From assembly GCA_021234155.1 (NCBI GenBank), contig JAJEKV010000023.1:9557141-9621140 (forward strand): a DNA stretch of 64,000 nt, in the 5' to 3' direction. The position numbers were made by a program, and so were the translations under genes. This DNA is from Isoetes taiwanensis (taxonomy: Eukaryota > Streptophyta > Lycopodiopsida > Isoetales > Isoetaceae). Positions 13,455 to 43,354 of this stretch are shown here, one piece after another. Within the stretch, counting starts at the first letter, position 1. Each line of letters starts with the position of its first letter. The notes below the pieces were generated by a model. It was not told where the DNA came from. It did not search any database and saw nothing but the letters and a program-made list of their open reading frames with translations.

Positions 13455-13464
13455 TGTGCAATTT

Positions 13465-13476: not shown

Positions 13477-13477
13477 C

Positions 13478-16460: not shown

Positions 16461-17560
16461 GGAGATGGGGAAACCACAAAATACCTTGACAAAAATGCTT
16501 GGAAGTCCTACAGTGTGAAATTCCTGTATAGTGGCTTCCAAAACTTCTAGAGGTATATAAAACTCCGGGTTTGTTTTTTTGGCCGTTCATGCTTTAAATG
16601 TCACAATGGGGACATTATTGCCCCCTTCAAAATGTAGAGATATAATTGCTACTAACAGCAATGGATTCTTATTGAGTTAAGTGCAGTACCAAAGTAGATG
16701 TCATTGTATGTAGTGCATTTGTGAAGCTTCTTGCATGTTAAAACATGAGAAGTAATATTGCTAGTTGATACAACTACACATACAACATCAACTTCTAGAT
16801 GCATTAATTTAGGCATTGTTGCGATGTTCTTGAAACGCAGTCTAATTTGTCACCTGTGCACACTCTAATTTGTGTGTGAACTTGTAGATTGTTGGCTCTT
16901 TTATTTATGTTCATTGAAGAGGAACTGTAGACAATGAGTTGAGTAACAAATTGATTCTTGTAGAGCAGTGAACATCTATAAGGAGGATGGAATAACCAGG
17001 ACGTTGCACTCAATATTTACTTGAATTATGAGAAGTCCAATATGACTAAGAGCTTATGCAGATGGAGATATAAACTCTGCAAGGACTTGCTACAGGTTAA
17101 ATATAAGTAGACTGTAGTGAAATGAAAGGGAGACAAAGAATCTAGAGTTCTCCACTGGAATCTAATGATTCTAAGTGATAAGGGGCATTCAAACAATATC
17201 TAATATGCACTAACTCTCTGTGCATTATACAAAGTCTTATATAAGCTCATGTAAACTGATTGAACTGTGTACCTCATGCAACTGCATGTTGCAAGACCTG
17301 TGAGTAGAGATTCACTGAATACATTCAACTTTCTTTGCTCTTGTACCCTGTATGTAACAACAAACACAAAGCAGAATTGGTTCAGAAATCACAATGCACA
17401 TTGATATCATAGTACAACAGTACAATCATACATTAGAAATTTATCTTTAGGATCGCATTTTACAAATAAGTCGTATTTAATTAAAGTGGGTCTCATTCCA
17501 TTCCCACTTTTTTTTGGAACCCTGTTATTTTACACAAAAAGGACCTAGGAAAATTACTCG
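16461..17560. other. No recognised gene
   Basis: AT-rich stretch with frames under 70 codons and no similarity I can name. It ends where the first TTCTCGACTCG-type palindromes begin. Confidence 0.5.
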
Positions 17561-17624
17561 GACTCGAAAACTGTCGAGAATTTGAATATTTGTCTGTTAG
17601 TGTGTTTCCAATCTTTCTCTCCAT

Positions 17625-17646
17625 TTTCTCGGATCGCGAGTCAAGA
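17625..17646. repeat. Family-1 palindrome (degenerate copy)
   Basis: TTCTCGGATCGCGAGTCAAG and two more bases, an imperfect version of the 22-bp palindrome seen at 19753-19774. Another half-similar copy precedes it at 17561-17580. Confidence 0.65.
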
Positions 17647-17689
17647 ACAAAAAGAATACACTCAAACAGCTACAATGTATTTTACATCG

Positions 17690-18027
17690 GACGCAGAGAC
17701 CATAGCGGTCTTGCTGTCACTACAGTTACATCATCGTGGTAGGTGGTCCACCTTAGGTGATGAACGTGCGGGGCTTCTTCTTGTCGTCTGTAAGCCTTGG
17801 GGGCAACCTGAAGAATGTGGAATGCCTCACGAGGAGGTGCCTTGGGAACCACCCGTTGACCTGTCCACCCGATTTCTCCACTCTCCTCCCGCAGCTTTTC
17901 ATCAATTGCCGGGTCGAATGTGCTCCTTTCCCAACCTCCGTGGATGTCATGCAATGCTTGCAAGATGCTTTGAGCTTTCTGGACTTGCGAAATGTTCTTC
18001 CTCTCTTCTTCATCCCTTGAGGTCAAG
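17690..18027 (-). CDS. Unidentified exon of module 1
   Basis: After an AG acceptor at 18028-18029 (TTGCAG) the minus-strand frame reads RLTSRDEEERKNISQVQKAQ, ALHDIHGGWERSTFDPAID and RVVPKAPPREAFHILQVAPK before a stop near 17682. It is charged and has no motif I recognise. It lies downstream, on the same strand, of the FCP1-like exon at 18410-18780, with a palindrome copy (18334-18354) and the 18064-18190 repeat between them, so it may be a later exon of that gene. Confidence 0.45.
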
Positions 18028-18063
18028 CGTCTGCAATCACGAGCAAGCTTATCTCAAAGCCCG

Positions 18064-18190
18064 GGTAAGAGTGTAGCCTGAGCGGGATCTGTGCCAGAGT
18101 GGGATCTCTGCCGCCTGGAGCGGGATCTGTGCCGCCTGGAGCGGTAAGAGTGTAGCCTGAGCGGGATCTGTGCATGAGCGGGATCTGTGC
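18064..18190. repeat. Tandem GAGCGGGATCTGTGCC repeat
   Basis: Five variants of GAGCGGGATCTGTGCC are separated by GCCTGGAGCGG or TGAGCG spacers. The block lies in the presumed intron between the unidentified exon and the FCP1-like exon. Confidence 0.75.
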
Positions 18191-18333
18191 CTGAACCACC
18201 TGGAGCAAGGAGAGTCCATGATTAACAATTACGGTGCCGTTAGTCAAAATGAAGAAAAGAATGGAGAATTCAACATAGAATAGAGAACATTCATTCCATA
18301 TAGCTGCATATAATCACATGACAAGCAATGCCT

Positions 18334-18354
18334 TTCTCGATTCGCAGTCGAGAA
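18334..18354. repeat. Family-1 palindrome copy
   Basis: TTCTCGATTCGCAGTCGAGA plus one base: the family-1 palindrome with its centre altered. Confidence 0.65.
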
Positions 18355-18409
18355 GGGCCCTGGAAAGTCAAAGTACAACCATTTTCATTTCAGAATATGG
18401 CTGCATCCA

Positions 18410-18780
18410 ATCACACAAAGAAGTATACAAATGGTTTCATGATGGCTGGATCGAGGTTTGACACATGTTCGACCCTTTCATTTTCCCAAACAAACTTGAA
18501 CTTCAAAACTGGAAGGCCGAGAACACCAAGGACATTGGCAACATTTTTTTTTTGCCATATAAGACCATATAGCCACTTCGAATCCCCGTTCCAGGCACCA
18601 TTCAATAATTTTCTTTGCTTTAGGCCGAGGATACATGATTTTAGACCCAACCTTTGTCGGCTTCTGCGAGGTGTTAAGCTCGGGGACTTCACCATCGTGG
18701 TATACTGCAGCCAAGACTCCATTGACGTCAAAAATTATAAGCTTGGTGGGCGCCTCTGGATCCCAATTAGAGTTTGGCTC
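18410..18780 (-). pseudogene. FCP1/NIF-like HAD phosphatase domain
   Basis: The minus strand encodes TKLIIFDVNGVLAAVYHDGE, IMYPRPKAKKIIEWCLERGF, EVAIWSYMAKK, then after a frame change NVANVLGVLGLP and KFKFVWENERVEHVSNLDPA. The layout matches the FCP1 homology domain: motif I (hydrophobic strand then D-x-D-G), the R-P strand and the W-S-T/S motif. The second catalytic Asp of DxDG is Asn (DVNG), so activity is doubtful. The frame change falls in a run of ten T on the plus strand (18544-18553) and may be an indel or consensus error. FCP1-like enzymes dephosphorylate protein substrates such as the RNA polymerase II tail (family knowledge). Confidence 0.7.
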
Positions 18781-18789
18781 TGACTAGAT

Positions 18790-19700
18790 TTCCTCTTGAT
18801 CGGGATCCATATGCGGGATCATTATTCTTTCAGGTTTTTTCTTGGTGGTCGCAGTATCTTGTTCTTGACTGTCTTTTCTGGATGCAGTATCCTCCCATTG
18901 AATTGAAGCGCCAGTAGATCCCTGTGATAGTTACAATGATCCGGATTGGTTGCGCTTGATGTCCCTAGAATGATGAAAGACGTCAGTTACGAACAGGGTT
19001 GCCCTTAAGGCCAAATTTGTCTAAGCATAATTTAGAAGGTCAGGCGAATAATAGAGTTGCAAGATTAGTTATGCTGGCGAATGTTTTCTAGACATGAATG
19101 TTTTTTATAGAAATCTAGGCGAATCATGACCAATATTATTTTGCCAAGATTTAAGTGTCTTCTTTTCCAAGTGCAATTTCTGTGGTGAAATTTTATTCAT
19201 CAGCATCCATATTTAATCAAGGACACAAACACATTATGACTATAGTTGCATGATGCAATACCACAACTTAACCTTTGCAAATGAGAACGTGGCTTATCCT
19301 TATCTATTAAAAGGGAGGTCTGTAAAAAAATGCTCTCCAGTGCATCCTTAGAAATATTTGAAACACAATAGCTACAAAAATAACTTTTAAAATTATCATA
19401 TGTACCTGAATGGATATGGAGAATAGATTAGGTTATGAAGAACGCCTACAATATTAGGCGATTCCTTAAGAAATCTTCAAGAAGGAGAGTAGAGGATAAG
19501 GTGAATCCATAGTTATGACGCTTAGCGGATGTGGCGAATTTTCCAGTGGAGTGAGATTTGTTTGTAGAAAAGTTGGCTAATTTTATTTTTTTCATCTATA
19601 ACGGGCCCTACTAAACCATAGCATCAAAATTTCTCGATACCCTTAAAAAATAGCCTTTTGGCGAACTTTCGTCCTTAAGGGCTACCCTGGTTACGAAATG
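18790..19700. other. Spacer with repeated GGCGAAT motifs
   Basis: No coding frame recognised. The motif GGCGAA(T) recurs (near 19033, 19076, 19119, 19543), and AAAAGTTGGCTAA occurs at about 19570. Comparable motifs in the opposite orientation occur at 46990-47200. Confidence 0.45.
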
Positions 19701-19703
19701 AGG

Positions 19704-19774
19704 TTCTCGACTCACGAGTCGAGAGAGGAAAAAGTTAAAGACTCGGGAGGGCTTCTCGACTCGCGAGTCGAGAA
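19704..19774. repeat. Family-1 palindrome pair
   Basis: A perfect 22-bp palindrome with half-site TTCTCGACTCG lies at 19753-19774; a copy with one changed base lies at 19704-19724. Other copies are at 17625, 18334 and about 17561. All known copies of this family lie in 17.5-19.8 kb. Confidence 0.85.
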
Positions 19775-19877
19775 ACCCTCCCAGAGCAAAGTTCACTCAC
19801 CTCAATCTCAGATTCTCCACTATTTATTTCGCAGCAAGCTCGCCTAAACCTTGGACATCTCCCTCATCTTTATCTCC

Positions 19878-20192
19878 CTAGTTGTCAGCTTTGTCTCCAT
19901 CATCTTCGTCCTTACTGCTTCCAGCTGTCTTCCTCTCTTTGAAATGCTTATGAAGCAGGTCCAGGTATGACCGAATGGTCTCAACCATGTCCTTGTTCCC
20001 AACCACAGATATTGGTTTCATTCCATAGAGCATAGCCCCTTGAGAGAACAGGCCATTCATGTACCACTCGCATACAATTTGATCTTCCTCTACCAAGCTG
20101 GTTATGAAGTACTTGATAACTCTTGGCCGGATAGGAATTCTATGTATTGGACCTGTCACACCATCAGTGCTGACTTTGTCAATCGATGGCAC
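19878..20192 (-). pseudogene. Degenerate DNA methyltransferase C-terminal fragment
   Basis: The frame reads HRIPIRPRVIKYFITSLVEE, DQIVCEWYMNGLFSQGAMLY, KPISVVGNKDMVETIRSYLD and an acidic tail KDEDDGDKADN. The pattern (helix, G/E-D-x-V strand, loop, new strand with acidic residue, long helix) matches the motif X-I end of a beta-class amino-methyltransferase, as in the genes at 27376 and 20812, but the FxGxG loop is replaced by WYMNG. It is therefore unlikely to bind AdoMet normally. The acidic end resembles that of the 27376 gene (DEDYDLDL). Confidence 0.5.
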
Positions 20193-20811
20193 ATCCTCCC
20201 TAAATCTGCCGCCCTTCTAGGGTTCCATATGAGCAAGAATTAATTAATTAGAGAAATTTGGGATTCTCGTTTAGTATGAAATAGGTTCTTGGTTCTCTAT
20301 AAAACTCCGTAAGTCGTTGCAACTGAGTAAAAGTTGCCGTTTATTTTCATGATTTTCTCCCACAACCAGCGATGTATCCGAATTCGACATTTATAAGGCT
20401 ATCCCAAGCTCCTTTCATAGTAAGAGTTGTCCATTAGAAAGAGTAAAAACACTCAGCAGGATCGCGACGGTGAACATTTGAAGCTGCTTAGCTACACCCA
20501 TAGATAGAAGATCACAAGTCCATACAGGTCTAAATATGGATGACAGACAAGTAAGTGATAGCGAAGATCGCGGCGGCGAATATTTTGAGCTGTTTAGCTA
20601 CCTCTTTTGATCCGAATTGTTAAGCCAGAGGAGGTCTGCAGAAGGCCATCAACCTAGAAAGTGCTAGCAAAGATCGCGGCAACGAAAGTTTAGACAAGAA
20701 ACAAAACTCAAAATAATAAAAAACACAAAATTGTGCAATTAATCAAAACCTTATAGATTATAATCCATAGAAATAGCAGTGTACAATTGTTTGCCATAGC
20801 GGAAGAATTTA
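20193..20811. other. Spacer with half-palindromes of family 2
   Basis: Three left halves of the GATCGCGGC motif, each followed by a weaker right half and a (T)GAGCTG-like tail, occur near 20459, 20562 and 20661. No gene is seen. Confidence 0.55.
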
Positions 20812-22775
20812 CTACAACTGGGTTTCTGATACTGATTCAGGTACAACACCTAACTCCGCAGGTATCCTAGCAATATGTTCATGGTCCCTTCTTATAATCT
20901 GGGATGTATCCATCTCTGTATAGCCTGTTACATATGGGATGTCTACAGACATGGCCTGTGCAAGGACTTGGACATGTGGATCGGGTTCTTCCGTCTCAGT
21001 ATCCATTGTGCTGCCTTTCGCCGATGCGGCATTTTGGACACCACAGTCGATTTCTGGTGTATGGAAGAGCTTCTTTTTCTTGGTTACAACCTGGTGCTCT
21101 TGTGTAGCACTTGGCTCGCCCTCATGATCCGCAGGTTCCTCGGTGATTTCTATGTATTCAAAATTTGACCCGCCTGTCAGGAAAGGCATGTAGGCATCAA
21201 ATTTTTTGTTTAAAGCCCAATTTTTGAAACATAGGCTCTAGCGCATCAATACCTTTCTTTGTAGACTCTAAAAGTCTTTTCGTCTGCTGCATCCTTTGCT
21301 CGTAGCTCTCTGCATCCATTTGATCCAAGATTTCATCAAGCTTAGATATATCTGTTTTCTGGGTAATATTTATATTGATCTTGCCAGGATCATTTGCAGT
21401 GTCTGCTTTCTCCTCTTCGTCTGTCTCCCCAGTGCCCTGGCAAACCATTTTTTCAAGCTTATCCAAAAAAGCCCTAAGAAATCGGCATACTTTACCTTGG
21501 CTCTCGAAATACTTTTCTTTCCTTGCATTAAGGCGACACGGGAAGCAGTACCAGCTGAGAAGAAATCAAGGACACAACCATCCTTGGGCACCAGCTGGTC
21601 AACAATGTAGTAAGCATATGATGTCTTTAACTGGCACTTTAGCACATGATCACCTTCCATTCCGACAAACTTGTATCTTGGTTTACCCGTAAAGTAAGTC
21701 TGCCATTGTTTCCTCGTTTTCTCATCAGCTTCTTCATTTCCAATGACAGGCATTGGTAGCAAGGGGGTGTTCTTTGGTGCTAAGCTCACCGGTGTCAAAC
21801 AAAGCTCCAGCTCATGCAATATCGACATTACCCTGGAATCGCTTCTGTTAATGCACATATGGGTGATGTAATACTGATACTCCTTTACTCTTTTCTTGTT
21901 CACCTATCCTTGCTCGTCATACGTGCCTACAGAAATATGGGAGCCGCCTTGAATCTACTTTTGACTGTACAAGCAATCTGGCAAGTTCACAGACCGCATC
22001 AGAATAATCAGGTGATAAAGATTAGCAGTTGTCATGCTGGATATTCTTGTAAAAAGCTCCATGTACTTTTTGCAGGACCATATTGTAGAGAACCCCCTGA
22101 TGTCAATGAACACCAGTGTTGCATTCTCAGATACTGGAGTGGACGTAGGAATCCCTTCCTTTGTCACTGCGTGAACAACATTTTTTTTCTGTTTGATTTT
22201 GATAGCCTCTTCAGGTTTCAAAATCGATCTGATCGGCTCTAAAAATGCAACGGGCAAATTACCCATGACATGATCTTTGTTGTAATTGGACTTCACGTAT
22301 TCTATATCCGAATCAGAAATATCAAGAATCCGCTGTTTAGTGAAATCAGGAAACTCAGACAACAATTCTTCAAAAGAAGAGTATTCTTTCTGAAGCAAGC
22401 TGGAAGCATAGAACACAATCTCTCTGCGCATGAAGGTCAAGCTTCTAATGTCAATGGCGCGCTGCTTGCAATCATACCTGCTGTGATATCCCGCTTGCAC
22501 CTTAAGGTATGTCTTTCCTTCCAAAATCTCATCTAGCAGCTGAGAAACCTCTGCATTAGACCTCTAAGGAATCTTAGCCAAGTTTTGTAGAAGAAGCCCT
22601 TCGTTGGCCTATCAGGTAGATCCCCATGTTCATCACTCACCCTTTTGCTGGCCACTTCCATTAGTTTTTTGAAGACGCGCTCCTCCATAAAAATGAACTG
22701 CTTTTCATCTTTAAGCTACTTCACCTTCAATGTTGTAGTAGCTATCTCGTGGAAGTCCTGAAAAATAAATGGTCA

Positions 22776-22800
22776 GCAAAATCGCGGTCGCGATGTTGGT
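22776..22800. repeat. Family-2 palindrome copy
   Basis: AATCGCGGTCGCGATGTTGG followed by TGAGCT: family-2 palindrome with one degraded arm, at an intron position of the module-2 gene. Confidence 0.7.
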
Positions 22801-24422
22801 GAGCTAAAAATACAAAATACCTTCCATGCCGATGTTATAGCAGTACCAATGGGCCTTTGTGGAGGACATCCATATGCCTTGTGTTGATGCCATAGTTGTT
22901 GCAGCTTCTCTATCAAAGGCTCTCTATACACGGTGTTTGCTATGACTTCATTGCACTGAATGCTCAATTCAATATATTCTCTATCTGACAAATTTCCATT
23001 CAGCACTCTGGTCCTTCTCCTGGCATAGGCTTTAGCAAATTCGAGCCGTTGTTCCAGTTCTCCGACAACATCGCAAAGCAATTGAGCTGCACATTATGGT
23101 TACCAGAAATTATCCAAATTTTTTTGCCCTTTAAATCAGCTTCTGTGCTCCACGTGACCTTTCTCCTGAAATAATGCGCACCGATTAGATAAGAAGCCAC
23201 AGAACAAATATGATGGATAATAACAATCACCTTGTAATTGGGTCAAAGGGGACAACGTCGGCCGGTGTGAGGACCTCTGTAGGATACGCCTTGAAGCTCT
23301 TCACAAGTGTTTGCACATGGTCGTTCGACTGCATTCGATGGGTGAGATTAGCAGGAGCTGGCTCGCAATAAAAAATAGATACTTTCATAAACCAGTTCAC
23401 ACCAAGCGGATAAAATCATTTAAACTCTTCAAGCTTCTGTGCAGTTTGCTCAGCCATCTTACATTCTTCCTCGGGATTGAACTTAAGCTCAGTTGGCAGT
23501 TCAGGTACAACCGGCCATGCCAAGGTATTCGAAGAAGATAAACCTGTGACAGAAGGGGGGGTGGGAGATGACGAAGGCTCTCTACTATCCGATGTTGTCA
23601 GTTTGCACAGGTTGATCGTGAACTTTGATATCTTGTTGGGGACCAACGTCTCTTTCATTGTAACAGGTGGAGCACAAATAGCCAGAGGCTGTGTCGGATC
23701 AACAATAGCTGAGGGAGGGGCCATGGTAACAGGCTCTACAGACAAGGGCCTGGTCTGGGAAGAGTCCCCTGCCAGGCCTCACATTCTTCTTCTTGGCCTG
23801 AGCTCTCAGCCAGTTTGTGTCCATCACCGAGGGCATTTTCTCATCACGCTTTGCTTTCAACCCAATGCTCGGTGGTTTCTTGTCTGCTAGCAAACCTTTC
23901 CTGCATGCTGAGAAACCTGACAGGATATCCCTGTTTCCCTTTATTCCGGATAGAGACAGAGATTCATACGACTGCAGCTCCCAGCCATATCCTTTTGCAC
24001 TAGTGGGGACATTTTTCCCTGTTGCCGGTTTGTTCAACTTGCTAGCCGACATCATTGAGGGGTCGTAGTTCCGCCATTGCAAAACGTACTCCAGGAACTG
24101 CAGTTGCTGTGTATCCTCCACGTTGCATATGATGGCGTCCTGCACATTGTTTTTTGTGCCCTCCCACATAGCAATCACTATCCCTATCTGTTGTATGTCT
24201 TCAACTTTCTTGCCAATCCGGAGGAACAAGCACGGGTCTTTTCTGCGGTCACCTTTAGTTTGAGGAATTGCTTGTACAATTTCAATGCACCATTTCCTTT
24301 CATTTGAAGGTGTGTTGATCTTTGTAGGCTCAACATCTGGACCACAATACAAATCCAAAGCTGCAAGCAAAAGAAATGCTTTGTTAAAGCTGATGCTACG
24401 AAACCAAACCACAAAGCACTCC

Positions 24423-24765
24423 ACAAGATCGCGGCCGCGATCCTGCTGAGCACTAACTTACCACAGTTTCACGTTAGGACTAACTTAGCGCAAATCCGGC
24501 TGAGTACTAACGTAACTAACGTAACATGAAGGCCTAGTCTGAGAACGAGAGTGCTAGTCTGTAGGCCTACAGAGGACTAAGCTCAGTAGGATCGCGACCG
24601 CGATCCTATTGAGCACTAACATAACAAAGGACCTTGGCACTACATAGGTTCTGCTCAGTAGGATCGCGGCCGCGATCCTACTGAGCACTACAACAGTGTA
24701 AAATAAAACAAGCATACACCAAAAAAAAAAAGAAAACGCGGCCGCGATCTTCATGAGCTGAGGGG
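24423..24765. repeat. Family-2 palindrome cluster (NotI-centred)
   Basis: Four copies lie in the first intron of the module-2 gene: 24423-24452, 24581-24614, 24652-24687 and about 24737-24765. The copy at 24652-24687 is a perfect 36-bp palindrome; its half-site is TGCTCAGTAGGATCGCGG. The core GATCGCGGCCGCGATC holds a NotI site. Further degenerate copies lie at 20459, 20562, 22780, 25950, 26026 and 26212. Confidence 0.9.
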
Positions 24766-24805
24766 ACGAAATCTTACCTTCTTTGAGGCTGGCTTTAGGT
24801 GCCAT

Positions 24806-25480
24806 GGATCGCGGGCGCCGGAAAAGATTGAAAACTGGCTTTCCTAGGTCGGCGATCGAAGGCGCAAATTAGTTGAAGGCGCGGAATTCGGCGATGGCAC
24901 TGCTCCTTAAAATTTCAGCGAATTCTGAGAATGAATAGTCATCCTCTAGACGCCGAATTTAGTGCCACACGTGCGGTTTCTGACGCGCCATAAGTGCACG
25001 CCATTATTGCAGCCGACATCATTAATTATACGCCATTAATTCAGCCGCCATCATTTATGGAGGCGTAACAAATTTGCTATAATTAAGACATATTCCGGAC
25101 AAGAGGTATTTCTGGACTTGGACGTCCGGATTCGAAATCTGTACCTTGAGGGAGACATGCAACTACATTCTGTACGAAATCACCGCGTAATAAAAGCACC
25201 ACGGAATAAAGCAATCTTTTCTGGCATGTCTGTGCAGAAGAATTACGGACGGAAAAAGACAGCTAGACTTCAAATTAGTAACTGAATTTCGCGCTCGCTC
25301 TTCTTGGCGGGGATTCAATTTTGAGTTCAAGCCAGCTGTTCCTGAAGGCGCTCTGTTCTAGAAGGCATCCGAACTGTTCTTGAAGGCCCCAGATCTGTTC
25401 TTGAAGGCGCTCGATCTGTTCTTGAAGGTGCTCAAGTCCCCAAGCTGCCAGGGTTCACAATCCTAAGGCGTTCACTGCAT
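24806..25480. promoter_or_regulatory. Divergent intergenic region, modules 2 / DUF8039-like
   Basis: The 675 bp lie between the start of the minus-strand methyltransferase gene and the presumed first exon of the plus-strand gene, so both promoters must be here. I see paired ATTATA/CGCCATTAATTCAGCCG motifs near 25010-25060 and the repeat at 25338-25440, but no clear TATA box that decides a start. Confidence 0.5.
25338..25440 (+). repeat. Short tandem repeat (CTGTTCTTGAAGGCGCTC)
   Basis: Four to five variants of CTGTTCTTGAAGGCGCTC with different spacers lie directly upstream of the plus-strand gene. The position suits an upstream regulatory array, but this is inference. Confidence 0.75.
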
Positions 25481-27023
25481 ATGCTGCCCGACATTACTCA
25501 AATCAAGAGGTAAGTGCTGTTTTGTTGTTTATGTATGGTAGATAAGAGTAATATGTGATTTCAAAGTGCTAGCTAAGAGGATTGCATAATTCCTGTATGC
25601 TAGATAAGAGTATTCTGTATTTTTGGAACTCATAAGGGGTTTTCTGGAAGTCTAGCCTCAAATTATTTATGATTGCCTCCCTCGACAACAACACCATTCA
25701 TTTTACTGTAATAACACCATCCCTAATATTTTATATGCTGTTTATGGCTCTCTGTAATCTGCTATATGAGTATAGATATGCTATATGGGTATTAAATTAG
25801 GACAGTTCTCCTATGTAATTAACAGTGAAAGTGACATTTGTTTTGGAAATAACAGTTGCAATTAACATTTATGTTTACAGTTGCTTTGGAAGACTTTCAT
25901 ATGGAGGGTCTTCTTGTGCAACTGCATAGGCTCGGATCTCTGCCTGAAAGAATCGCGACTGCGATCCTGCTGGGGTGTTTTTGCCACAACGTCAGATACA
26001 CATTCCAAATCTACTCGCTCGAAATAATCGCGACTGCGATCTTGTGGAGGTATTCTGTCCTGAAATCCTAGAGCAAAATAATATTTGAGTGGGCCATAAA
26101 TATTTTAGTTAGAGCTGATGAAGATTTTAGTTTGAGCTCAGCTGATAAAATAATATTCGAGTGGGCCATGAAGACTGCTATTCAGTTATTTTTTTGCCAA
26201 TGTGGTCCAGAGGATCGCGATCGCGATGTTGACGAGCAAAAGCTAACATGTTTTGTAGGATGGAAGCCTTACAGTCATTCTACCTGTTGGGGAAGAAAGT
26301 GGCAGAAGGCAGAGTGCACAACTTCATGCACCACCACAACGTTCCTGTACCAGAAGATTTGATAGTAGTTTCCGTTGTAGTTGTGTTTGATGGCCAGATA
26401 CCACTTCCGTTTCCCGAATCGGAAGTGGACAAGCTAGGGGAAGCTATCGGTAGCTTTGTTCTTTGGTGCAAAAACGACATTAAGAATGAACTCGATGCAG
26501 CAACCGATGTTTGCACGCCACCTGGTCAGATTAAAGGGATAAATTGGCAGGTCAGATAAGATGATAGTGTAGAAAACAGTAAACCTAGTGAAGTGCATGG
26601 GATTTCTAGAGATCAACTAGTGGAGAAGACATGCGCGTTACTGCATGAGTGCTGCAATATGCCTTATGCTTCAAGTGTCATCGTCTTCGCAGATCCAAAC
26701 CATGCTGTGTCTTACATGAAGCTGGGTGAAGAATGGATAGGGGCTTCTATTATGAACCTGTTCCCCATGCCCGAAAATATTTCTATGTGCTGTCAGGTTT
26801 GTGCAGAAATGCCGCAGGTGCATGATTTGGTGAGATGGCCAATAGCATTGGTTCTAGTAGACAGTATTCCTATTTCAAGTCTAGTGTCGGCCGTGAAGGA
26901 GACAGAGGTCGCGGAAGAACCTTATGCCATCAGGCCGGAGGTTGGAATACCAAGAAAAAGACAATACCACATGGTTAACAGGCGACGCTCCGCCCAAAAC
27001 AAATGTGAAAGGAAAACCAGGTA
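25481..27023 (+). pseudogene. DUF8039-like transposon-associated ORF
   Basis: A short ATG exon (25481-25509, MLPDITQIK) followed by GTAAGT may be exon 1. The main exon (about 26229-27023) encodes LGKKVAEGRVHNFMHHHN, PEDLIVVSVVVVFDGQIPLP, EVDKLGEAIGSFVLWCKNDI, then PYASSVIVFADPNHAVSYMK and a basic end RRRSAQNKCERKTR. The middle resembles the DUF8039 region of plant transposon proteins (strands, LPxP, then gxAxGsFvxW), which I recall only as a pattern. One in-frame TAA (26557-26559) splits it; the second copy at 60.6 kb has no TAA there. It faces the 27376 gene (convergent). Family-2 palindromes flank it at 25950, 26026 and 26212. Function unknown. Confidence 0.5.
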
Positions 27024-27038
27024 ACATGATTGCAAATT

Positions 27039-27066
27039 AAACGGGAGTGTTGCAGCACTCCCGTTT
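27039..27066. repeat. Hairpin between convergent genes
   Basis: AAACGGGAGTG, a 6-base loop, and its exact complement form an 11-bp stem just after the stop of the plus-strand gene. ATTAAACGGGAG recurs inverted at about 46985, after the transposase gene. It may act in 3'-end formation. Confidence 0.65.
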
Positions 27067-28930
27067 CAAAGATTCCCTTGAAAAAAACAGCCTGCTCTAG
27101 AAAATGACACTTTTTTCCTTCTAATTGGGAATTCCAATAGGCTTCATTTTTTTTTACCTCCTTTTTTGCCCCTTAGTGCAAAAGAACTTGGATTTTGCCA
27201 AAAGCAGCACTTGAAAAGGGAAGAATTTAGACATGCTTTTGTATTCTCAAAAAGTATTTTCTTGAAAACACCAGAATGCAGTGAATAAAATAATTATTAT
27301 ATAATTAAAGTGTTTCAATGACATCAATTTGTAACAACACATGAAGGTGTAATAAATCTTTTTGTAAAAGACAGACTAAAGGTCCAAGTCGTAGTCTTCA
27401 TCATTCTTTTTGCTTGTTTCTGCTGTGCCAGATTCTGTAGTATGTTCCTTTTCTTGTGCCTTACCCTTGTCTACTTCTGCAGTGTCTTCAGGAACGGTAG
27501 CTAGTGCCACTTCTTTCAGCTCTGCAAAGGTAGCTTCATCCTCTAAAGAGCTAGTGAATGGAGGCTGTATCTCAGAAGAGGTCAGCTTGGCAAAATCGGA
27601 TGAGGATCTGGCGCCTAACTCTTGGTGCTCATCTGGTAGAGTAGGCAAGACTGGCAGTCTCATCTTGATAAAGTTTACAGCTTCTTTATCAATGTCTTTA
27701 TCAAGTGCACAAGCTATTGTTGTACCAGAGCCAGAGAAGGCATCAAGCACCCAATCTCCTGGACGTGAAAACATGTCTAGGAGATGGTTGATTAGCTTTT
27801 GAGGCTTCTGGTAGTGATTAACAATTCTACCTTGTGCACTAGGGTCTTATAGCTTTTGAAGCACAGCTGGAAATTCCAAAACATTAGAAAAATTCTGGCA
27901 TGTTGCTGTGTTAAAATGCTCCATGGTGCGTTTGCCATCGAAACTCCAGTAAGCAACATGGAGGTATTCAACCTTACTCAGCAACCTCGGCCCTCCGCCA
28001 TGGTAGTTTATATTTGTTTTGTACCTGTAGAAATTAGAGTGTCACTAACGAAAACAGAACAAGAAACAAACAAAGAGAACAAGTCAAAGGCAATCATATT
28101 CTGGAATAGAAAACTAAAACAAAAAGAAGAAACATTCCCAACGTATTCCAGAATAAAGTACTCACCAAACCAAATTCTCATAACCAGCTTGCACTGGGGA
28201 TCCGAAATGATTTTTGAACGTGGACTCCACAAGGCCGGATTGCATGCTCGAATGAAAAACGACAAGACGCCAGTGCTTGGCCGTTGTGACTTGTTTGATG
28301 CTGTCGACGAAAGCATTAAACTCTGAATTTTTAAAAGGCTGATCGTCGTAACAGCTGTCCTTTAGTTTAAAGCTATAAGGAAGGTCCGCTATGACCAGTG
28401 TAAAATCCTGTGGCTTTACTGTTCCAACCAGTTTAGTGCAGTCCCCGTGGATAATAGAAAACAAATTATTTTGGTCGTATAAATTAAACTTTTCATAATC
28501 AGACGGCTGCACTTCTAGAGTCCTCCTATCTGCCAGTGTTCTTTCTTCTCGTGCCAGTCTCACGAGGTGCATGAAACCTTTTGGCAGGTCCTTATTTTTC
28601 TTCTTGTTCTGCAAACAAAGGGAAGATTGAGATAGAGACAAGTCAAGTATGACGAGTTTAGTCAGCGTACACATCCTTCAAAATTTGGAGCGTACTGAAC
28701 AATACGCTCGTCGGAAGTAGCTATGGGATAAAGCTCCTTGCACCTCTCCCACGTCTCCACGTTAAGTTGCTCCATCAGACATGTCTGCAGGTGATGACAT
28801 TTTTTTGGCTTGAAAGAAAACCACAACCGTTTTAGCAGTTGGAAAGTGAAAAAGTAAAGTAAACTATCTTGTGCCACGTAAATTTATTCTAGAATACAAG
28901 TGCCTTAGACAACAATTTTGTTGTTGCAGC

Positions 28931-29120
28931 AGTGTATTTTAGAATACACTTTAACTGCAGAGAAGGAGCGAAAGTGTATTCCGGAATACACTTCTACAAC
29001 GCAAGAAGTTAGAGTGTGTATTCCAGAATACGTTTTCGCTGACTCGAAGGATCGGAAGTGTATTCTGGAATACACTTTTACACTACACGAAGTGGGAAGG
29101 TGTATTCCGGAATACACTTT
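28931..29120. repeat. Family-3 palindrome cluster (GTGTATTCCGGAATACAC)
   Basis: Five copies lie in the intron 28795-29228: 28931-28950, 28972-28993, 29016-29034, 29057-29078, 29099-29120. Two are perfect, with AAGTGTATTCC as half-site; the others vary at the centre (CCAGA, CTGGA, TTAGA). Single or partial copies also lie in other introns and upstream (28095, 28143, 29505, 30930, 31117, 31157, 31410, 31490). Confidence 0.9.
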
Positions 29121-31116
29121 CGATCCCGCGAGGGGGAGAAAGCATTTTTGGGAGTACCCGATTGCTCTTCTTTTGTGGTAATTGTAGAAGTCTACAAGTG
29201 AAAAGGCAGCAATGATGGTAATGCTTACTTGTGCAACTCCTTCGACATTTCTTCAAGTGTGAACTCCTTGTCCACCACCTTCTGCAGAAGCCGTTCTATT
29301 AACTCTGTGTCTGTAAACCCCTGCATCTCCCTCTAGACAGTGGTAGTCATTTCTTTCTTTGGCACGTCTGTGCCTTTCTTCTTCTCCGCGACCTTGCCCT
29401 TACTCCTTAGCTCATCACTCTCAAACATATTAAATATTTCGTTTTGGAGCTCCCAGATCTGCAAACAAAAAAGAAACTCATAAGCTAGTTGTACACTAGA
29501 TCTTATTCTGGAATATGCTTCTAACATACCCGGTCGTCTCTGAACGCTAGCTGAAACCAGTTGTCATGACCAATGAGTGATGCACGTTTGTTCGTCTCGT
29601 CATATTTAAGGCAACACTCAATGGCACAAGCTTCTTTAAGTTCAAGGAGTACTGTGGCTTTTTTAAATCCTCCCCATACTTTTCCTTGAAGATGACATAT
29701 TCTCTATGCATAAATCTTATTTTGTCGACAAAGCTCATTTTTAGCTTGTACTCGTTGTCAGCGTTGTGAGTGTTGGCAACGATTTTGGCTTCCTCGTAAA
29801 CCACAGTAGACTGCACAAAGGATAGACAAGTACCTAGGATTCTTTTTTTCTTTGTATAATTGCCTCCTTGCCTTGAAGCTGTGGTTCCCTCCCAAAACAT
29901 AATGCGTATATGTGTCCGCATTTTCTCTATCGTACTCTGCAGGAGTTGTGCACTGCTCTCTATCAACAAGAACAACAATTGGAGCAACATGGGCGTTTGG
30001 ATTGCTCCGAATTCTGTCCTTGAGGTTCCTTAGATGATCTGCATATATCTTTCGAACCTGCAGTGGTCGTTCTCCAGCTTCATTTTTTAGAGGAAGCTTC
30101 ATTGATGTGACGGGCAAGTAAATGACACCTTGCACAAACTTGTGCAGGTTAATCTCTTCCATTTTCTCTGATGTTTTATCAACCTTTTTTTCTTTAATGG
30201 CAACACCAGGTGCTTTGCCCTTCCCCTTCCTCTTCTTGGGTGCTTCCTCAGGAGCATCTTCTGTTGCAATTAAAGCCATTTTTCTTTTTTTAGGCTCTTT
30301 AGCAGCAATGGTTAGCCTCTGCTTCTTTGGTGGTGGTGATGGTGGCTGCTCTTTCGACCCTGATGGACTGCTCGCAGACCCTGATGGGCTCCCTTGTTCT
30401 TCCTCTTCCCCCTGCTCTGACTCGCTGTGGGCGAAGTCTTCGCTCTGTGTGCTTCGAACGTCGTTGATTATGGCACTGAGCGTTCTCTTGTTGATATAGT
30501 GTGAAATATACTTGTAAAGTGCCGGTGGGTTTACTTTGACAAGTCTAAAAAAGGCTTCATCAACATGAATGAAATCTTGGGATGTCTGAAATGACAGTCT
30601 CCCTCTTTGTCCGGACTCCCCAGCTACTTCACTCACAGCTTGTATTGTGCCCATGCAGACAAATTCTCTGTCATCATACCTTTTTGCACTAGGACTCCGA
30701 CAAACATGTAAGAAAGTAAGGGTGTTGTACTTTCCAGCTGTACCCCTTGTGAAGAACCACTGAGTTTGGAAGTTCTCGTATATCACAGGCGCAGCAGTAT
30801 CATCAACCCTTCTCTGTGGGTGTGCTTTCTGAGAGATTTTGATGGTCTTCTTGTGTTGTTTCTTGCTGTTGTCTTGCCTGTACACATTGTGTGTAAACAC
30901 GACTTTTTTTAGAGAAAGCACTGGCATAAAACTATTCCAGAATACAAATGGTCTTAAACAAATGACAAAAAGAGTACAAAAAGAGGACAAAAAGGCCAAA
31001 ATAACAATGCGCCCTTGACAAAAAAACAGGCCTAAACACTTCTAAAAATCGGAAAAAACGCCTAAAATTTACGAGAAAATTCGAAAGAATTGTCCTTTCA
31101 AAACCTAAAGACACGA

Positions 31117-31138
31117 AAGTGTATTCCGGAATACACTT
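31117..31138. repeat. Family-3 palindrome, perfect copy in intron 1
   Basis: Perfect 22-bp palindrome with half-site AAGTGTATTCC in the first intron of the methyltransferase gene, comparable in position to the family-2 cluster in intron 1 of the module-2 gene. Confidence 0.88.
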
Positions 31139-31238
31139 TCGCCTTCGTGCGAAGGCGAAGTGTATTCGGGAATAAGAAACAAACTTAGAAATGATTGTAC
31201 GTTGTACTTTGTTGCTCACCTGTCCATGTCTTCTCCAT

Positions 31239-31561
31239 GTGGATCGGAATACAGTCTCTGAATATTATATTCGAGGCGCTGGCGCTGGCAACTTGAGCTC
31301 AGAGACTGGAATACGCAACTGAAGGCGCCAAAATTTCCTTTTAAAAGTATCTATTTCGTCTTGCTCGTATTCTTTGTGAAATGGAATACATTTAGCCTTA
31401 TTGTTCTGCTCGAGTGTATTCCGGAATAGCTTTTAGTTTGCCTTTCACTTAATTGTTACAGGAACTTCTACTTGTATTAAGTGGGCTTGTATTCGGGAAT
31501 AAGAAAAGCTCTGCAGTAGAGAAAGTTTCTCAAATCTCTACACTGTTTTGCAGTTGTTAAG
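31239..31561. promoter_or_regulatory. Divergent promoter region, methyltransferase / transposase
   Basis: The 323 bp separate the methyltransferase start (31238, minus) from the transposase start (31562, plus). It holds several family-3 half or full sites (near 31245, 31307, 31384, 31410, 31490). A protein that binds this palindrome could affect both genes; that is inference. Confidence 0.55.
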
Positions 31562-33288
31562 ATGTCGAACCGCTTCGTGAACAAACTTCCACCACCTTTT
31601 GTTGTCTCAAGCTCGTCTAGTTCTGAGGACACGCTCGGGAACAACGTCGTTTCTTCTGAAGACCGGTACTCTCCGACTCCTACCTCTACTTCATCGTTGT
31701 TGCTTCTCGAAGAGACACCGAGTCCAGCACCTAACAGACTTCCACCACCCTTCCAACCGTCACCAAGTCCCTAGACATGACACTGGGATCTCCTTCCAAA
31801 GCATCACCACCAGTTCGAAGCATGCTGCCACCACCCTTCGTTCCATCTGGACCTACAGATGCTCCACAACAACGGGTGCAAGAACAAGCTACCCCCCCCT
31901 GTAGTTTCGCCCCCTTCGTGCAAACAAACAAGGAACACAGAAAACACAGAAGACTGTGAGATTCACTACAATTTCTCTCACCAGGACTTCACTACAAATG
32001 AAGACGATCCTGCAGCATGTACTCCTCTTCACACAACGGTTGTGACACATGGATTTGCAGAATTCCAGTCCACTCTAAAGGAGATATTTGCAAGAACTCC
32101 TTTTCAGGATGGTACAAGAACAGCTGATGCCACAACCTCTTATGGGCCATCACCATCCTTTAACACTGTACTACCGCCTTTTCTGGGAACAACTTCACGT
32201 GGTCTGTTTTCCTCTACAAATACACCACTCAGGACAGAGGAGGTCACCCCCAGAGTAGAAGTTTCATCAGAAGATGATGACACCAACGAGGAACAACGAG
32301 ATTACATGTTCTCTAGCCAATCTTCAAAGAAATTCAAGGTGGATTTTGGTTTGAGAGCATGCTCCTCTGTAAGAAGAAGAAACCTTATGGATGAACACAA
32401 AATGAGAAGACTCCTGAGAACTAAATGCTGCTCATTGGGTTGCATCAACAGATTTAACATGGCCAAACTACGAGCAGTTAGAGACAACTACAGTTCAATG
32501 ACATTGGCAGACCAGAATGGCTACTTAGCTTATCATGTAAGACCAGACCGCAACATCTTCTTGCACTACATTAACCGTGAACAAGTCTGCCAAAAATCGT
32601 CATGGTTGTCCACCGTCTAGGATCCACAAGAATGTCTCGAATTCACAAAAGACTGGACAAAAACCCAGCAATTGATGATCACTGTGGTCCAAGAAGAGTT
32701 GTAACTATGCATGCCCTGGCTGCTGTTACATGGATGGAGAAATATTTTAGAGAGACATGTGAGAAGTTGCCTAATAGCAATATGTATCATCTCACAGACA
32801 ATATTACAAAAAAAGATGTCTTCAAAGAATACAAAGAGACATGCATTCAGTTTCAGCACATCTCTTACTCACACTTCACCAGACTGTGGAAAAGTGAATT
32901 TGGCCTTGTGAAAATTCCAAGGAGACATAGAATGCCTGTTTGCTCGAGATGTGCAGAATTAAAAAGTCAACGAGAAACTGCAAAGACAGAGGTCGAAAGA
33001 AGTAAGCTCATGTCCTCCATCCTATCACTTGCTTTGAAGAAAAATTTTTAACCTGATTTCTTTTACAGATATTGTGCAACAGAATCTTGCCAGACATCGT
33101 GAACAACAAGCAGCAGAGAGAAGAAAGCTCGCCAAACACAGAAAAAAAGCTCTCGAACGTCCACTACAATATATGTCTATTGTAATTGATGGAATGGATG
33201 AAAAAAAGACAACTCTACCCCATTTCCTAAATATTCCAAAAGATGTGCCAGAGGAATGTTTCGTTAAAATCCACCTCGTAGGAGCCAT
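31562..33288 (+). pseudogene. DUF7869-type putative transposase, 5' part
   Basis: From ATG 31562 a Pro/Ser-rich N-terminus with frame changes near 31770 leads to RRLLRTKCCSLGCINRFN (Cys motif), HYINREQVCQKS, then after a one-base shift near 32600 MVVHRLGSTRMSRIHKRLD, RLWKSEFGLVKIPRRHRMP and CSRCAELK. An intron (33002-33068) is followed by LQYMSIVIDGMDEKKTTLPH with the first conserved Asp, and HLVGA at the gypsy insertion point. Coding resumes at 45170. Proteins of this type have an RNase-H-like fold pattern (D ... DNT..NKN ... GHTHxxID) and are multicopy in many eukaryotes; transposase function is inferred, not proven. It is divergent from the methyltransferase gene, 324 bp away. Confidence 0.75.
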
Positions 33289-35094
33289 TGTGACGTTCCA
33301 GCACAGTATACGCTCCCAGGACGTATATTGTACTGCCACGTCACGCGTACACGCCACCCCGACTGACGTGTACGCCAACGTGTAGCCAAGTGGGTAGCCC
33401 CTAGGGGGCAACTTGCTAAGAATGTGCATTAGTATTAATGTGCACATTTTCCAATGTACACATTAATGTGGGCACACATTTCCATGTGGCCACTTGATGC
33501 CAAGTGGGCCATACCCATAGGTGCAATTAATGTGCACATTTTCCAATGTACACATTCATTAATGTGCACACATTTCCATGTGAGCACATTTGGGTGCACA
33601 CATTTCCATGTGGGCACATTTGGCCACCTAGCCCTTAAAGGCAAGTGGGCCCTTTTCCCAATTATCCCACATGCCTAAAGGGGATAATTGGAAACCCTAG
33701 CCACCCCCTTGTCTATTTAAGTAGGAGAACCCTAACTTGCCCATTTTCGTTTCTAGGGCTTTAGAGCTCCGTTTTGGCTGCCTCAAGAGCCAAAACCGCC
33801 TCCCAGACTCTGTCGGAGAGAACTGCATCATTAGTTTTCCTTGATTCGAGCATTTCAGCAGGATGGTCGAGTTCAGGTCAGGAGGAGGAACTCAAGGATC
33901 AGGTATTTAGGCAATTTAGTAGTCTAAACCCCATTTCAGCCATCGAATCAGTAGGTTTAGCCTCTTAAATTGCCCATAGCAGCCCTCTAGCACTCTAGAT
34001 AGCAGATTCTAACTAAAGAACCTAACTCTATGATATAGATTAGATCTTGTTCTTTAGTTCTTCTGTGATGTATATGGATGATGTATCTCTGTGAACTCCT
34101 TGTATTGGGAAGGGGGGTAGAGACCTAAAGCTTGGTAGTAGATGCTCCTAGATTAGCCTCTCTAGCACACTATAGATGCGGCCTGCGTACAATAGCCCGC
34201 CTGTGTTGTGTTCTTAGGGGTCAGACCGGTTGATAAGGGTGGCTGTGTCCATAGCGGTTGCTCTCTCGGGATGTAAAGTCTACCCGGGGAGCACTGCAGA
34301 CTAGCGCTTAATACTCAGGGACTGCGTGCACCCTGAGTATGAGTTCGACACCCGTTGGGGATAAGAAGCCGTGCCTGGCGACGGTGCCACCAGGGGTTTC
34401 AGCCGAGGTCCTGTGTGCAGTGGTTGTGCTGGCACAGGGGTCGGGACCTGGTCGTGGTGGTAGTTCCCTTCAAGTGGGTTAAAGTCGAGTACGGACAGTT
34501 GGTGTCCTCTAGTCTGCCTGCTATGGCATTGATCATCTGGTGGGAGAGAAACCTCCCTACCTGCCTCATCGGGTCTGGGGAGATGTAACCTGGCTATAGC
34601 CCCTTTGGCTATGATCCCGGCAGGCTACGGTCCAACCCCGAAGTTCTTCAACCTATCTGCAAAGTGTACGCAGGAGGGGCGGATGGAGTGGACAACCCTA
34701 AGCCATGTTCATGTGCCAGCCAAATCCATTGCCATGAATTCTGTCTGCAATGAACTCTGGAGACCCAAGCCGTCAGTCATCCCTTTGAGTCTGAGCCTTG
34801 GGTAGGATTCCCTATGTGATGTGCTGATCTTTGTCTATGCAGATATGTGGAGGGCCATCCTTCGTGATGGTCATATGATATTGATGTATGTGCTACTGAC
34901 ATGTATGTTTACGCTTCCGCAGCTAGGTAGGCCCTGAGGGAGACGGGGTGCAATGACCCTTCCACTCTTCCCACTGGAACCCGTCACGGTTGCAGTGTCA
35001 TGTGGAGGGCCCTGTATTAGCATGGAGCTGGTATGGGGGATGAACTCCTGTTTGTGTACGGTGAGGGCACCGTATACGAGTAGGGGACGTCACA
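33289..35094 (+). repeat. Element B 5' LTR
   Basis: Starts TGTGACGTTCCAGCAC and ends GGGGACGTCACA. A TATA-like TATTTAAG lies at about 33714. An internal array (33424-33620) repeats ATGTGCACATTTTCCAATGT and CACACATTTCCATGTG. Confidence 0.94.
33424..33625 (+). repeat. Short repeats in LTR U3 region
   Basis: Alternating copies of AATGTGCACATTTTCCAATG and GCACACATTTCCATGTG, some mutually inverted, just upstream of the presumed LTR promoter. Such U3 arrays often bind host transcription factors; here that is inference. Repeated again at 43490-43690 in the 3' LTR. Confidence 0.8.
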
Positions 35095-35095
35095 G

Positions 35096-35107
35096 TGGTA
35101 TCAGAGC
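35096..35107 (+). promoter_or_regulatory. Element B primer binding site
   Basis: TGGTATCAGAGC one base after the 5' LTR, complementary to initiator Met tRNA. Confidence 0.93.
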
Positions 35108-35219
35108 AATGTTCTTGGAGACCAAGAGCAAAGCACTGACCATGCTCCCAGTAGTACTAACTCGATAGGATTCTCAGACCTCGAAGAATGGGAAAAAAAT
35201 TTTCTCATTTTTGTAGTAT

Positions 35220-35365
35220 ATGCTAAGCTAGTAACAGTTAAAGTGAATTAGTAATAGTTAAAGTGAATTAGTAACAGTTAAAGTGAAAAATTAGTGAGCC
35301 AAATAGGATAGTTAAAGTGAATTAGTAACAGTTAAAATGAAAAATTAGTGAGCCAAATAGGATGG
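35220..35365 (+). repeat. Tandem repeats in element B leader
   Basis: GTTAAAGTGAATTAGTAAC-type units are repeated five times, and a larger unit ending AAATTAGTGAGCCAAATAGG occurs twice. Confidence 0.85.
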
Positions 35366-35431
35366 TCTCACACGTCGCGCCAGAGCCGATTTCTGAGATG
35401 TAGAAACCTGTCTGGGCGCAACGTGTGAGAC
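35365..35431 (+). repeat. 67-bp hairpin cassette, copy 1
   Basis: Arms GTCTCACACGTCGCGCCA and TGGGCGCAACGTGTGAGAC can pair with one or two mismatches around a loop of about 30 bases. Copies 2 and 3 lie at 36172-36238 and 36371-36437, all exactly 67 bp. Confidence 0.88.
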
Positions 35432-36171
35432 ATTGATCTGAAAACAGCTTAAAAAGTCAAAAAAAATTCAGAGAAGTAACTTAGTAATTCGAATTTCAGC
35501 CTAGGAATTAGCTAGATTAGCTTTCTAATCTATTTAAACCTCATCTTAAAAGAATTCCCACAGTAGCGGGAATTGAACCTCCCACCCACAGGGTTGAACC
35601 CCCCCAAACCCCCCCGTGCCAACCACTGAGGGCGGGCATCGTTTGTGTTTGAATTATAATCCTTAATTAGATTTAAGCTGTAATAATGTTAGATAATATT
35701 AATGGCCAAGCCTTAGACTTAGAACCAAGACCCTTAAGCTAGATAGAGTCAGCATCCTGATAGACACCAAGCCTCCGATCGACATGACGCGCACCAAACA
35801 GACCACTCGACTCCCTCGACAAGGCGAAACAGCCAGAGGCCAAGGAGGCTGAAGGAAACAAGAAGAGGAGAGGGCAGAACGAGAGCGGGAGGTCAGGGGT
35901 CAAGAAGCAGCAGAGCAGAAGCTGGTCCGACATTTTGAAGACTCAACAGCCGCACAGTACACACCAAGGGAGTAACTCTAATGAAGAAAGATATGCACTT
36001 ACCAATCATATCAAAGGAGAACCTTATTAATTTCGTAAATGATAAAATTTGTTTAATACAACGTGTTTTAGAGTAAATTATAACTGTATAAAGTTACTTA
36101 ATTAAGTTAAGTTATAGAATTCTAGCTTTTGTTTTAGTCAAATTGGAGCTTTTGAGCAAAATTGAGACGAT

Positions 36172-36238
36172 GTCTCACACGTCGCGCCAGGACAGATTTC
36201 TACATTTTAGGAATCGGGCTGGGCGCAACATGTGAGAC
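36172..36238 (+). repeat. 67-bp hairpin cassette, copy 2
   Basis: Same arms as copy 1; the loop holds GACAGATTTCTACATTTTAG. Confidence 0.88.
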
Positions 36239-36370
36239 CATGCCCAAAAATGCCCAAAACAGCTCCAAATCGACCTAGTAAGGGGTCAATTCTGCCTAAC
36301 TCGATGAGTTTAGTGGAATTACAGCCTTAGATCACTTAAATTGAGTAAGCCTAGCCCAATTAGGACCCAT

Positions 36371-36437
36371 GTCTCACACGTCGCGCCAGGACAGATTTCT
36401 ACATTCTCAAAATCGGTCTGGGCGCAACGTGTGAGAC
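36371..36437 (+). repeat. 67-bp hairpin cassette, copy 3
   Basis: Same arms; the loop is closest to copy 2. Confidence 0.88.
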
Positions 36438-43262: not shown

Positions 43263-43341
43263 TCGTATGCATCGGGTTGATTGCGGGTTAGGAAGATTCC
43301 AAGGTGGGAGAACCACGATCTTTGCGGACAAACATCATTTC

Positions 43342-43354
43342 AAGGTGGGGAGAA
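43342..43354 (+). promoter_or_regulatory. Element B polypurine tract
   Basis: AAGGTGGGGAGAA directly precedes the 3' LTR; it primes plus-strand DNA synthesis in LTR elements. Confidence 0.9.

Follow-up and report, generated by a model that had tools for sequence, protein, structure and literature searches.

Three sets of palindromes lying side by side in a 64,000-nucleotide stretch of the Isoetes taiwanensis genome (assembly GCA_021234155.1, contig JAJEKV010000023.1; hereafter, the window) mark three different transposon families, A, B and C, nested in the order A(B(C)). The palindromes of the C family are confined to that family in all loci read, are non-coding, are kept in copies that lack genes, and are conserved in comparison with the spacers between them. 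An earlier interpretation made from the DNA letters (the sequence-only reading) had proposed that each set is a self-recognition tag for the protein of its own module. Each palindrome family does accompany its own module, and with somewhat better than even confidence we take the palindromes to be putative double-stranded binding sites, specific to each family, through which an element-encoded protein would recognise its own DNA for mobilisation or de-silencing.

Palindrome families in the window and genome-wide

The palindromes are real and arranged in blocks, as had been claimed: B and C lie far above shuffled sequence in the window, and the counts of all three families lie far above chance genome-wide. 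Exact matches were counted over the whole assembly (1.66 Gb, 1110 contigs), with each pattern read backwards as a control. The conserved core of the C palindrome, AAAGTGTATTCCGGAATACACTTT, has 2585 exact 18-bp sites (control 0), the A 20-mer has 3786 (control 0), and the B 16-mer GATCGCGRCCGCGATC has 527 forward and 533 reverse matches (control 1 and 0), its fully palindromic form being counted on both strands; the chance expectation for each of these exact counts is below 0.2. The window holds nine strong palindromes against 0.43 expected (30 shuffles, maximum of two), eight of which fall within 17-32 kb (0.1 expected). One of the eight, immediately inward of the C left end, is a 28-bp hairpin at 27039-27066 (AAACGGGAGTGTTGCAGCACTCCCGTTT) that is a member of no palindrome family and is preserved with few changes across 15 C left ends. 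A de novo scan of the window for repeated palindromes returned a cluster of seven, equivalent to C, with one member in a noisy copy at 62.9 kb, and a cluster of four, equivalent to B. The A palindrome gave only two members, like five other pairs, and since a pair also appeared in 3 of 10 shuffles, A is not significant within the window alone; it is weak there but not genome-wide.

The ten B sites of the window span 0-5 mismatches (shuffles give 0-2 sites), as do the twelve C sites, whereas the A sites at 17626, 19704 and 19753 have 0-3 mismatches, and further imperfect A sites were seen by eye near 17561 and 18334. Beyond the ranges that the sequence-only reading had assigned to the three sets (17.5-19.8, 20.4-26.2 and 28.1-31.5 kb), only C-like words with five mismatches were found, at 6089, 27254 and 52031; because shuffles yield one to three such words in all, some of the five-mismatch sites listed here may be due to chance as well. 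The noisy second copy of 25.98-29.95 kb contains C sites too, at positions 62918 and 63062, in degraded form. This copy (60062-64000, corresponding to 25980-29952) is 82% identical, and its differences concentrate at CTG (77%), CGG (69%) and CAG (49%) as opposed to 4% at AAA, a pattern suggestive of nanopore base-calling errors in DNA methylated at CHG/CG, or of a duplicate left unpolished; a comparison of both copies for evolution was therefore dropped.

Linkage to element families was examined in non-random samples: 20 of the first 22 clusters listed for C, and two A and three B loci picked for carrying several sites. Cross-comparison among these loci provided the sole negative controls, no random loci being included. 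Together with the window (up to 59 kb), the 20 C loci hold 225 C sites with at most five mismatches. Pieces of module 3, the gene module of C, occur in 15 of them, mostly with a DUF7869 gene as neighbour; the other five (L008, L011, L013, L016 and L018) have no module-3 gene but do have the C left end, so that all 20 carry either C-element genes or that end, and none contains module 2 or gene X of B at E 1e-3. Conversely, module 2 and the divergent gene X are present in all three B loci, in which neither module 3 nor A or C sites were found. The A family is less uniform: module 1 was found in only one of the two loci (L030, with an M1 piece 93% and a NIF-type piece 78% identical), while L031 has an A array without it; modules 2 and 3 are absent from both, and DUF7869 was not found in the 8.8-9.9 kb examined of each. 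Two C loci, L007 and L012, additionally carry A sites and weak A-module fragments, probably from nested or neighbouring A elements. Thus, the claimed confinement of each palindrome to its module holds for C (20/20) and B (3/3) and only partly for A, and scatter without a link to the matching genes did not occur in the loci sampled. In addition, an exact C site lies within 5 kb of 10 of the 11 exact C left ends on contigs up to C64 (chance 1.5% each), and an exact A site near none of the 11; for this check, the coordinates of left ends and of C and A sites were retyped from separate listings. The C palindrome was not found in viral contigs, in which the B 18-mer has two stretches, and Rfam gave no match at gathering scores. 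A DUF7869 piece at 8595-9480 of L018, outside the C element, is 41% identical to the copy of B and 30% to that of C, and perhaps represents another element family.

Placement and conservation of the sites

As had been noticed at the outset, the sites lie mostly in introns and between genes. None of the 128 C sites placed in 15 gene-bearing loci (at most four mismatches) falls in a coding match: the stretch separating the divergent genes holds 59, the intron that precedes the first methylase exon 49, and two further introns 8, and 12 could not be placed. Of 23 sites in the three B loci, just one (L029:6355) falls inside a coding match, and by eye this match appears to bridge a short intron that bears a site in the window. 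For spacing and arm statistics, up to five mismatches were allowed. Among 136 distances of at most 130 bp between neighbouring C sites, 86 are 41 or 42 bp, i.e., four helical turns, and a spacing of 48-49 bp is often seen in A arrays. That arms are kept while spacers differ also proved correct: in 58 C pairs at 42-bp spacing, palindromes are 88% and spacers 49% identical. Changes in the arms were counted in 466 C arm pairs, of which 395 are changed on one side, 28 on both sides in a complementary manner, and 43 on both sides without complementarity; the prevalence of one-sided changes suggests that a DNA word is kept rather than RNA pairing. The fractions given for identity and for arm changes are biased towards conservation, since C sites were selected by motif similarity. 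The B sites look bipartite by eye (TGCTC-n5-GATCGCGGCCGCGATC-n5-GAGCA), and the perfect 36-bp palindrome reported by the sequence-only reading belongs to this family (Table 1).

Four C copies without genes (L008, L011, L016 and L018) are 3.2-4.3 kb long, and 17-34% of their length, palindromes included, resembles gene-bearing copies. They nevertheless retain 6 to 11 sites, located 359-890 bp (in one case 1303 bp) from the right end and, except in L016, also 465-834 bp from the left end; the stretch examined of L013 has just a left end and three sites. This retention is the strongest sign that the palindromes are cis sites for something supplied in trans.

Nested architecture of the window

The ends of C are inverted repeats of approximately 25 bp that read AACA..TGTT. 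The left end (27023 in the window) is common to 15 sequences and the right end to 8, the window being counted in both; the left end is AACAMGRTTGCAAATTAAACGGGAG, and right ends differ from it by 3 to 5 mismatches. The strict left end has 476 exact matches genome-wide (219 + 257; control 0). All five copies in which both flanks were read have a 4-bp target-site duplication (TSD): TAAA (L008), GTAT (L011), TAAT (L018), TATA (L016) and CCTT (L022). C is thus a DNA transposon with terminal inverted repeats (TIRs) and a 4-bp TSD, although the right TIR of the window copy is decayed. Helitrons have a CTRR end and no TSD, and CACTA elements have CACTA ends and a 2-3-bp TSD; both assignments were ruled out by the AACA..TGTT ends and the 4-bp TSD.

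The B end motif TTCATTAATTAGAGAAA is exact in L027, L028 and L029. In the window, similarity to A ends at 20231, adjoining this motif at 20240, which indicates that B was inserted into A; in L028 and L029, gene X is followed by a DUF7869 gene matching 51.1-53.2 kb of the window, which indicates that C was inserted into B. The module borders drawn by the sequence-only reading are therefore insertion borders of nested transposons. One common B end was identified; the right end of B and any end of A were not found.

The C copy is itself interrupted, within its DUF7869 gene, by an 11.9-kb insertion (33292-45168) with 1.8-kb direct repeats (33307-35095 and 43376-45170) that are 96% alike, probably a young long terminal repeat retrotransposon. 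Elsewhere in the window, a stop-free copia-type gag-integrase frame of 860 residues occupies 10914-13496, and a frame resembling a LINE endonuclease was seen by eye at 14954-15556.

Table 1. Features of the window (gene models and intron positions of M2 and M3 drawn by eye)
Feature	Position	Strand	Remarks
A element (part), NIF-phosphatase-type gene	17468..20239	-	similar to A locus L030 from 17468 to 20231, where similarity stops
A palindrome, 3 mismatches	17626..17647	.
A palindrome, 2 mismatches	19704..19725	.
A palindrome, exact, 49 bp from the preceding one	19753..19774	.	49-bp spacing also in L012
B element, first part, split by C	20240..27022	.	end motif TTCATTAATTAGAGAAA at 20240, 1 mismatch
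Two B palindromes downstream of M2 (20459, 20565), each with 5 mismatches	20459..20582	.
B helper gene M2: 'GNH' region and methylase-like domain, altered motif IV, in-frame stops	20818..24806	-	model by eye
B palindrome, 5 mismatches, in short M2 intron	22779..22796	.	GT..AG intron by eye
B palindromes 24426, 24589, 24661, 24733 in M2 intron 1	24426..24750	.	intron by eye
36-bp perfect palindrome (B, M2 intron 1)	24652-24687
B palindromes 25950, 26025, 26212 in gene X intron 1	25950..26229	.	intron by eye
Main exon of B gene X, with the C insertion at its 3' end	26259..27024	+	beside M2 in L027, L028, L029
C element, 8.1 kb plus 11.9-kb nested insertion (33292-45168)	27023..46995	.
C left TIR, 1 mismatch to AACACGATTGCAAATTAAACGGGAG	27023..27047	+
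C helper gene M3: N-part, 'GGNHSFKARRQL' region, beta-class amino-methyltransferase domain (C-terminal half)	27379..30927	-	model by eye
C palindrome, 5 mismatches, in intron separating two methylase exons	28141..28158	.
C array 28882, 28932, 28974, 29016, 29058, 29100 in M3 intron	28882..29117	.	last five 42 bp apart
C palindromes 30930, 31119, 31160 immediately upstream of M3 reading frame	30930..31177	.
C palindromes 31414, 31487 between divergent genes	31414..31504	.
DUF7869 gene of C, 5' part	31571..33291	+	relatives in C loci
DUF7869 gene of C, 3' part	45169..46084	+	PF25273, E=1.2e-45
B element, second part, own DUF7869 gene (about 51.1-52.65 kb)	46996..53215	+	51.1-53.2 kb matches L028, L029

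Encoded proteins

The two genes of C are divergent, with the helper M3 on the minus and DUF7869 on the plus strand. M3 matches the Pfam family N6_N4_Mtase (PF01555) above the cut-off (E=6.3e-11 for one exon and 1.2e-12 when spliced by eye), a PHROG methyltransferase (E=3e-17) and CcrM in PDB (E=1.5e-7). Its motifs in the window are ADLPY (motif IV, with DLPY rather than DPPY) and FSGSGTT (motif I); DLPYG is present in 9 of the 11 C loci covering motif IV, and FSGSGTT is exact in 5 of 9, being shifted or altered in the remainder. In M2, the helper of B, motif IV is altered to IDIRGF (window), VDMRSF (L027) and IDMRAF (L028), the frame of L029 being broken there, and the M2 exons scanned against Pfam gave no methylase match. 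The A pieces scanned gave none either; A shows a NIF-phosphatase-type gene instead (PF03031, E=1.2e-10 in L030; the window piece, at E=0.014, is below the cut-off). The earlier expectation of a methyltransferase in every module thus found no support for A, and in B the catalytic motif is altered. Comparison of M1 and M2 gave E=0.004 to 0.01, which is at best marginal homology.

DUF7869 (PF25273, E=2.9e-46 in the L021 copy) contains the acidic motifs IDGMD, QLDN and GHTHDQID, which are compatible with a DDE/D transposase, and we infer that it likely serves as transposase for a TIR element that generates 4-bp target duplications. A search of viral and prokaryotic collections, sensitive to close relatives only, confirmed no relatives of M3. 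A tblastn search of phages returned 24 records; among the 15 matches listed, identity was 22-27% and coverage 32-37% of the query, the annotated ones being mostly methylases; for DUF7869 it returned none.

In-frame stops (20818-24806 and 27379-30927) and, in M3, a homopolymer frameshift were seen by eye in otherwise good frames, and the window copies of M2 and M3 may be dead or poorly polished, through decay or sequencing error. An alternative genetic code (TAA/TAG read as Q), considered because the stops seemed one-sided, was rejected since the 860-residue copia frame is stop-free and M2 by eye also has TGA.

What the palindromes may be for

Under the explanation that we somewhat favour, each palindrome set would be a cluster of double-stranded sites recognised by a same-family protein, which would probably bind as a symmetrical dimer; in C, a spacing of four helical turns (41-42 bp) would place the bound proteins on the same face of the DNA. 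The likeliest binder may be the helper encoded beside the sites, i.e., a methylase-domain protein in C and a methylase-like protein with an altered catalytic motif in B. Binding would mark the DNA as self, and the element, together with its gene-less relatives, would then be de-silenced or prepared for mobilisation. Both the binder and the purpose of the sites are inferred, and the DUF7869 protein, acting in transposition, could take the place of the helper.

In ParB/parS systems, a short palindrome lies beside the ParB gene, and the elements described here likewise have a short palindrome adjoining the gene of the supposed binder, although a ParB domain was not detected. The closest known analogue appears to be the VANC target arrays of Arabidopsis VANDAL elements, which the present elements resemble in having family-specific arrays in the non-coding DNA of the element. 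VANDAL elements have a MULE (Mutator-like element) transposase and a 9-10-bp TSD, whereas C has TIRs, a 4-bp TSD in five of five copies and DUF7869; moreover, the helpers here are methylase-domain or NIF-type proteins rather than VANC, their binding and de-silencing roles are putative, and homology is not apparent as far as examined. Accounts of the VANDAL motifs describe them as short, specific to a family and differing from family to family, located in introns and upstream regions, and tandemly arranged with an element-encoded protein (PMC5735166, PMC10398659); for VANC21, the motifs form tandem repeats that are enriched in one family and lie within VANC21 and VANB21 introns as well as upstream of VANA21 (PMC5735166). 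Mobile elements with DNA-modifying enzymes are likewise described among fungal TET/JBP-carrying DNA transposons (PMC12730594) and retrotransposons carrying DNA methyltransferases (DNMTs; PMC5890265); these enzymes belong to a different class, whereas here a beta amino-methyltransferase is accompanied by central family-specific palindromes.

Several observations weigh against recognition of the palindromes by a same-family helper. The ParB-like domain that the sequence-only reading had proposed, and to which the box GGNHSFKARRQL in the middle of M3 had pointed, found no ParB match in Pfam or PDB, whether window pieces, five copies or their profile were used (a weak PHROG match of unknown function has E=0.002); the helper has no recognised DNA-binding domain, and two single-sequence fold models were unusable (predicted local distance difference test, pLDDT, 39 and 35). 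Homology between the M2 and M3 profiles is not detectable (E=0.035), so that a common origin of the B and C helpers rests on motifs and layout. The co-change of palindrome and helper suggested earlier is not visible within family C: the helper pieces of L010 are 42-57% identical to those of the window, yet two C sites are exact, although these pieces are about 3 kb apart and may belong to more than one element. Between B and C, both helper and palindrome differ. No exact C site is listed within 10 kb of the exact left end at C21:39260. Furthermore, 107 of the 395 one-sided arm changes give G-T, which could pair in RNA as G-U, and B site 5053 of L027 is a perfect 38-bp palindrome (L027:5042-5079) with both arms differing from the B consensus, which fits constraint on symmetry itself. 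Finally, the VANC21 motif is a 9-bp word arrayed in one orientation, in contrast to the 18-34-bp palindromes found here, and the stem 'palindrom' occurs nowhere in the main text of the VANC21 paper (PMC5735166).

Among other explanations, the one that deserves most attention, albeit unlikely, is that the DUF7869 protein acts as transposase and binds the palindromes as internal sites in order to assemble both ends for transposition. Gene-less copies indeed keep palindromes near both ends in three of four cases and near one end in the fourth, the acidic motifs of DUF7869 point in this direction, and B and C each carry a DUF7869 gene while their palindromes differ. However, the C sites of the window are separated from the left end by about 1.1 to 4.5 kb and from the right by at least approximately 3.6 kb (insertion excluded), and they fall in introns and the promoter region, an unusual place for transposase sites; the TIRs are sequences separate from the palindromes, and DUF7869 was not found in the A pieces examined. 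It is less probable still that the palindromes are operators or enhancers regulating the two divergent genes of the element and bound by an element or host factor. The 59 of 128 C sites between divergent genes and the several B sites in apparent first introns of both B genes (by eye) would suit such a role, whereas retention in gene-less copies and the 49 of 128 C sites in a distant intron would not, and a different word in each family argues against a single host factor.

The sites might also be modified by the encoded methyltransferase as a methyl mark of self and non-self, for which the methylase domain of M3 and its motifs, where preserved, speak. We regard this as very improbable: methylase sites are usually shorter than 18-34 bp, motif IV has changed in the B copies of the window, L027 and L028 despite the same kind of site layout, and the A pieces lack a methylase match. 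Least credible of all is spread of the palindromes by DNA-hairpin copying or as functionless tiny parasites. Tandem units and symmetrical arms, including the variant B palindrome with both arms changed, are consistent with it; on the other hand, the sites occupy the same two positions in diverged copies with 41-42-bp spacing in 86 of 136 cases, they are conserved relative to spacers with mostly one-sided changes, and no target duplications were noticed around single palindromes by non-systematic inspection. Both alternatives of the sequence-only reading, tiny parasites and intron hairpins, are further disfavoured because the sites belong to far larger elements, occur ahead of genes as well as in copies that have none, and change mostly on a single arm.

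Wider significance

Family-specific binding sites for an element-encoded protein thus remain the preferred explanation. A broader proposal, which we put forward only tentatively and consider rather doubtful, is that the elements form an undescribed DUF7869 transposon group in which the DNA-recognition protein of each family, derived from a bacterial-type ParB-methyltransferase fusion, is paired with its own palindromic address, i.e., a second 'VANC-like' self-recognition system that evolved independently and whose catalysis one branch retained and another lost. DUF7869 is not named in any paper of the full-text literature searched. The literature on transposon-encoded methylases, ParB and anti-silencing, covered by few searches and judged by titles and abstract openings of part of the matches, holds related ideas (VANC, DNMT retrotransposons and TET transposons) and not this system. 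If the palindromes are indeed self-recognition tags, they would constitute a second, independent case of transposons acting on their own copies via private DNA words, would show how pairs of protein and address diversify from one family to the next, and would provide symmetrical recognition sites of 18-34 bp together with their natural partners.

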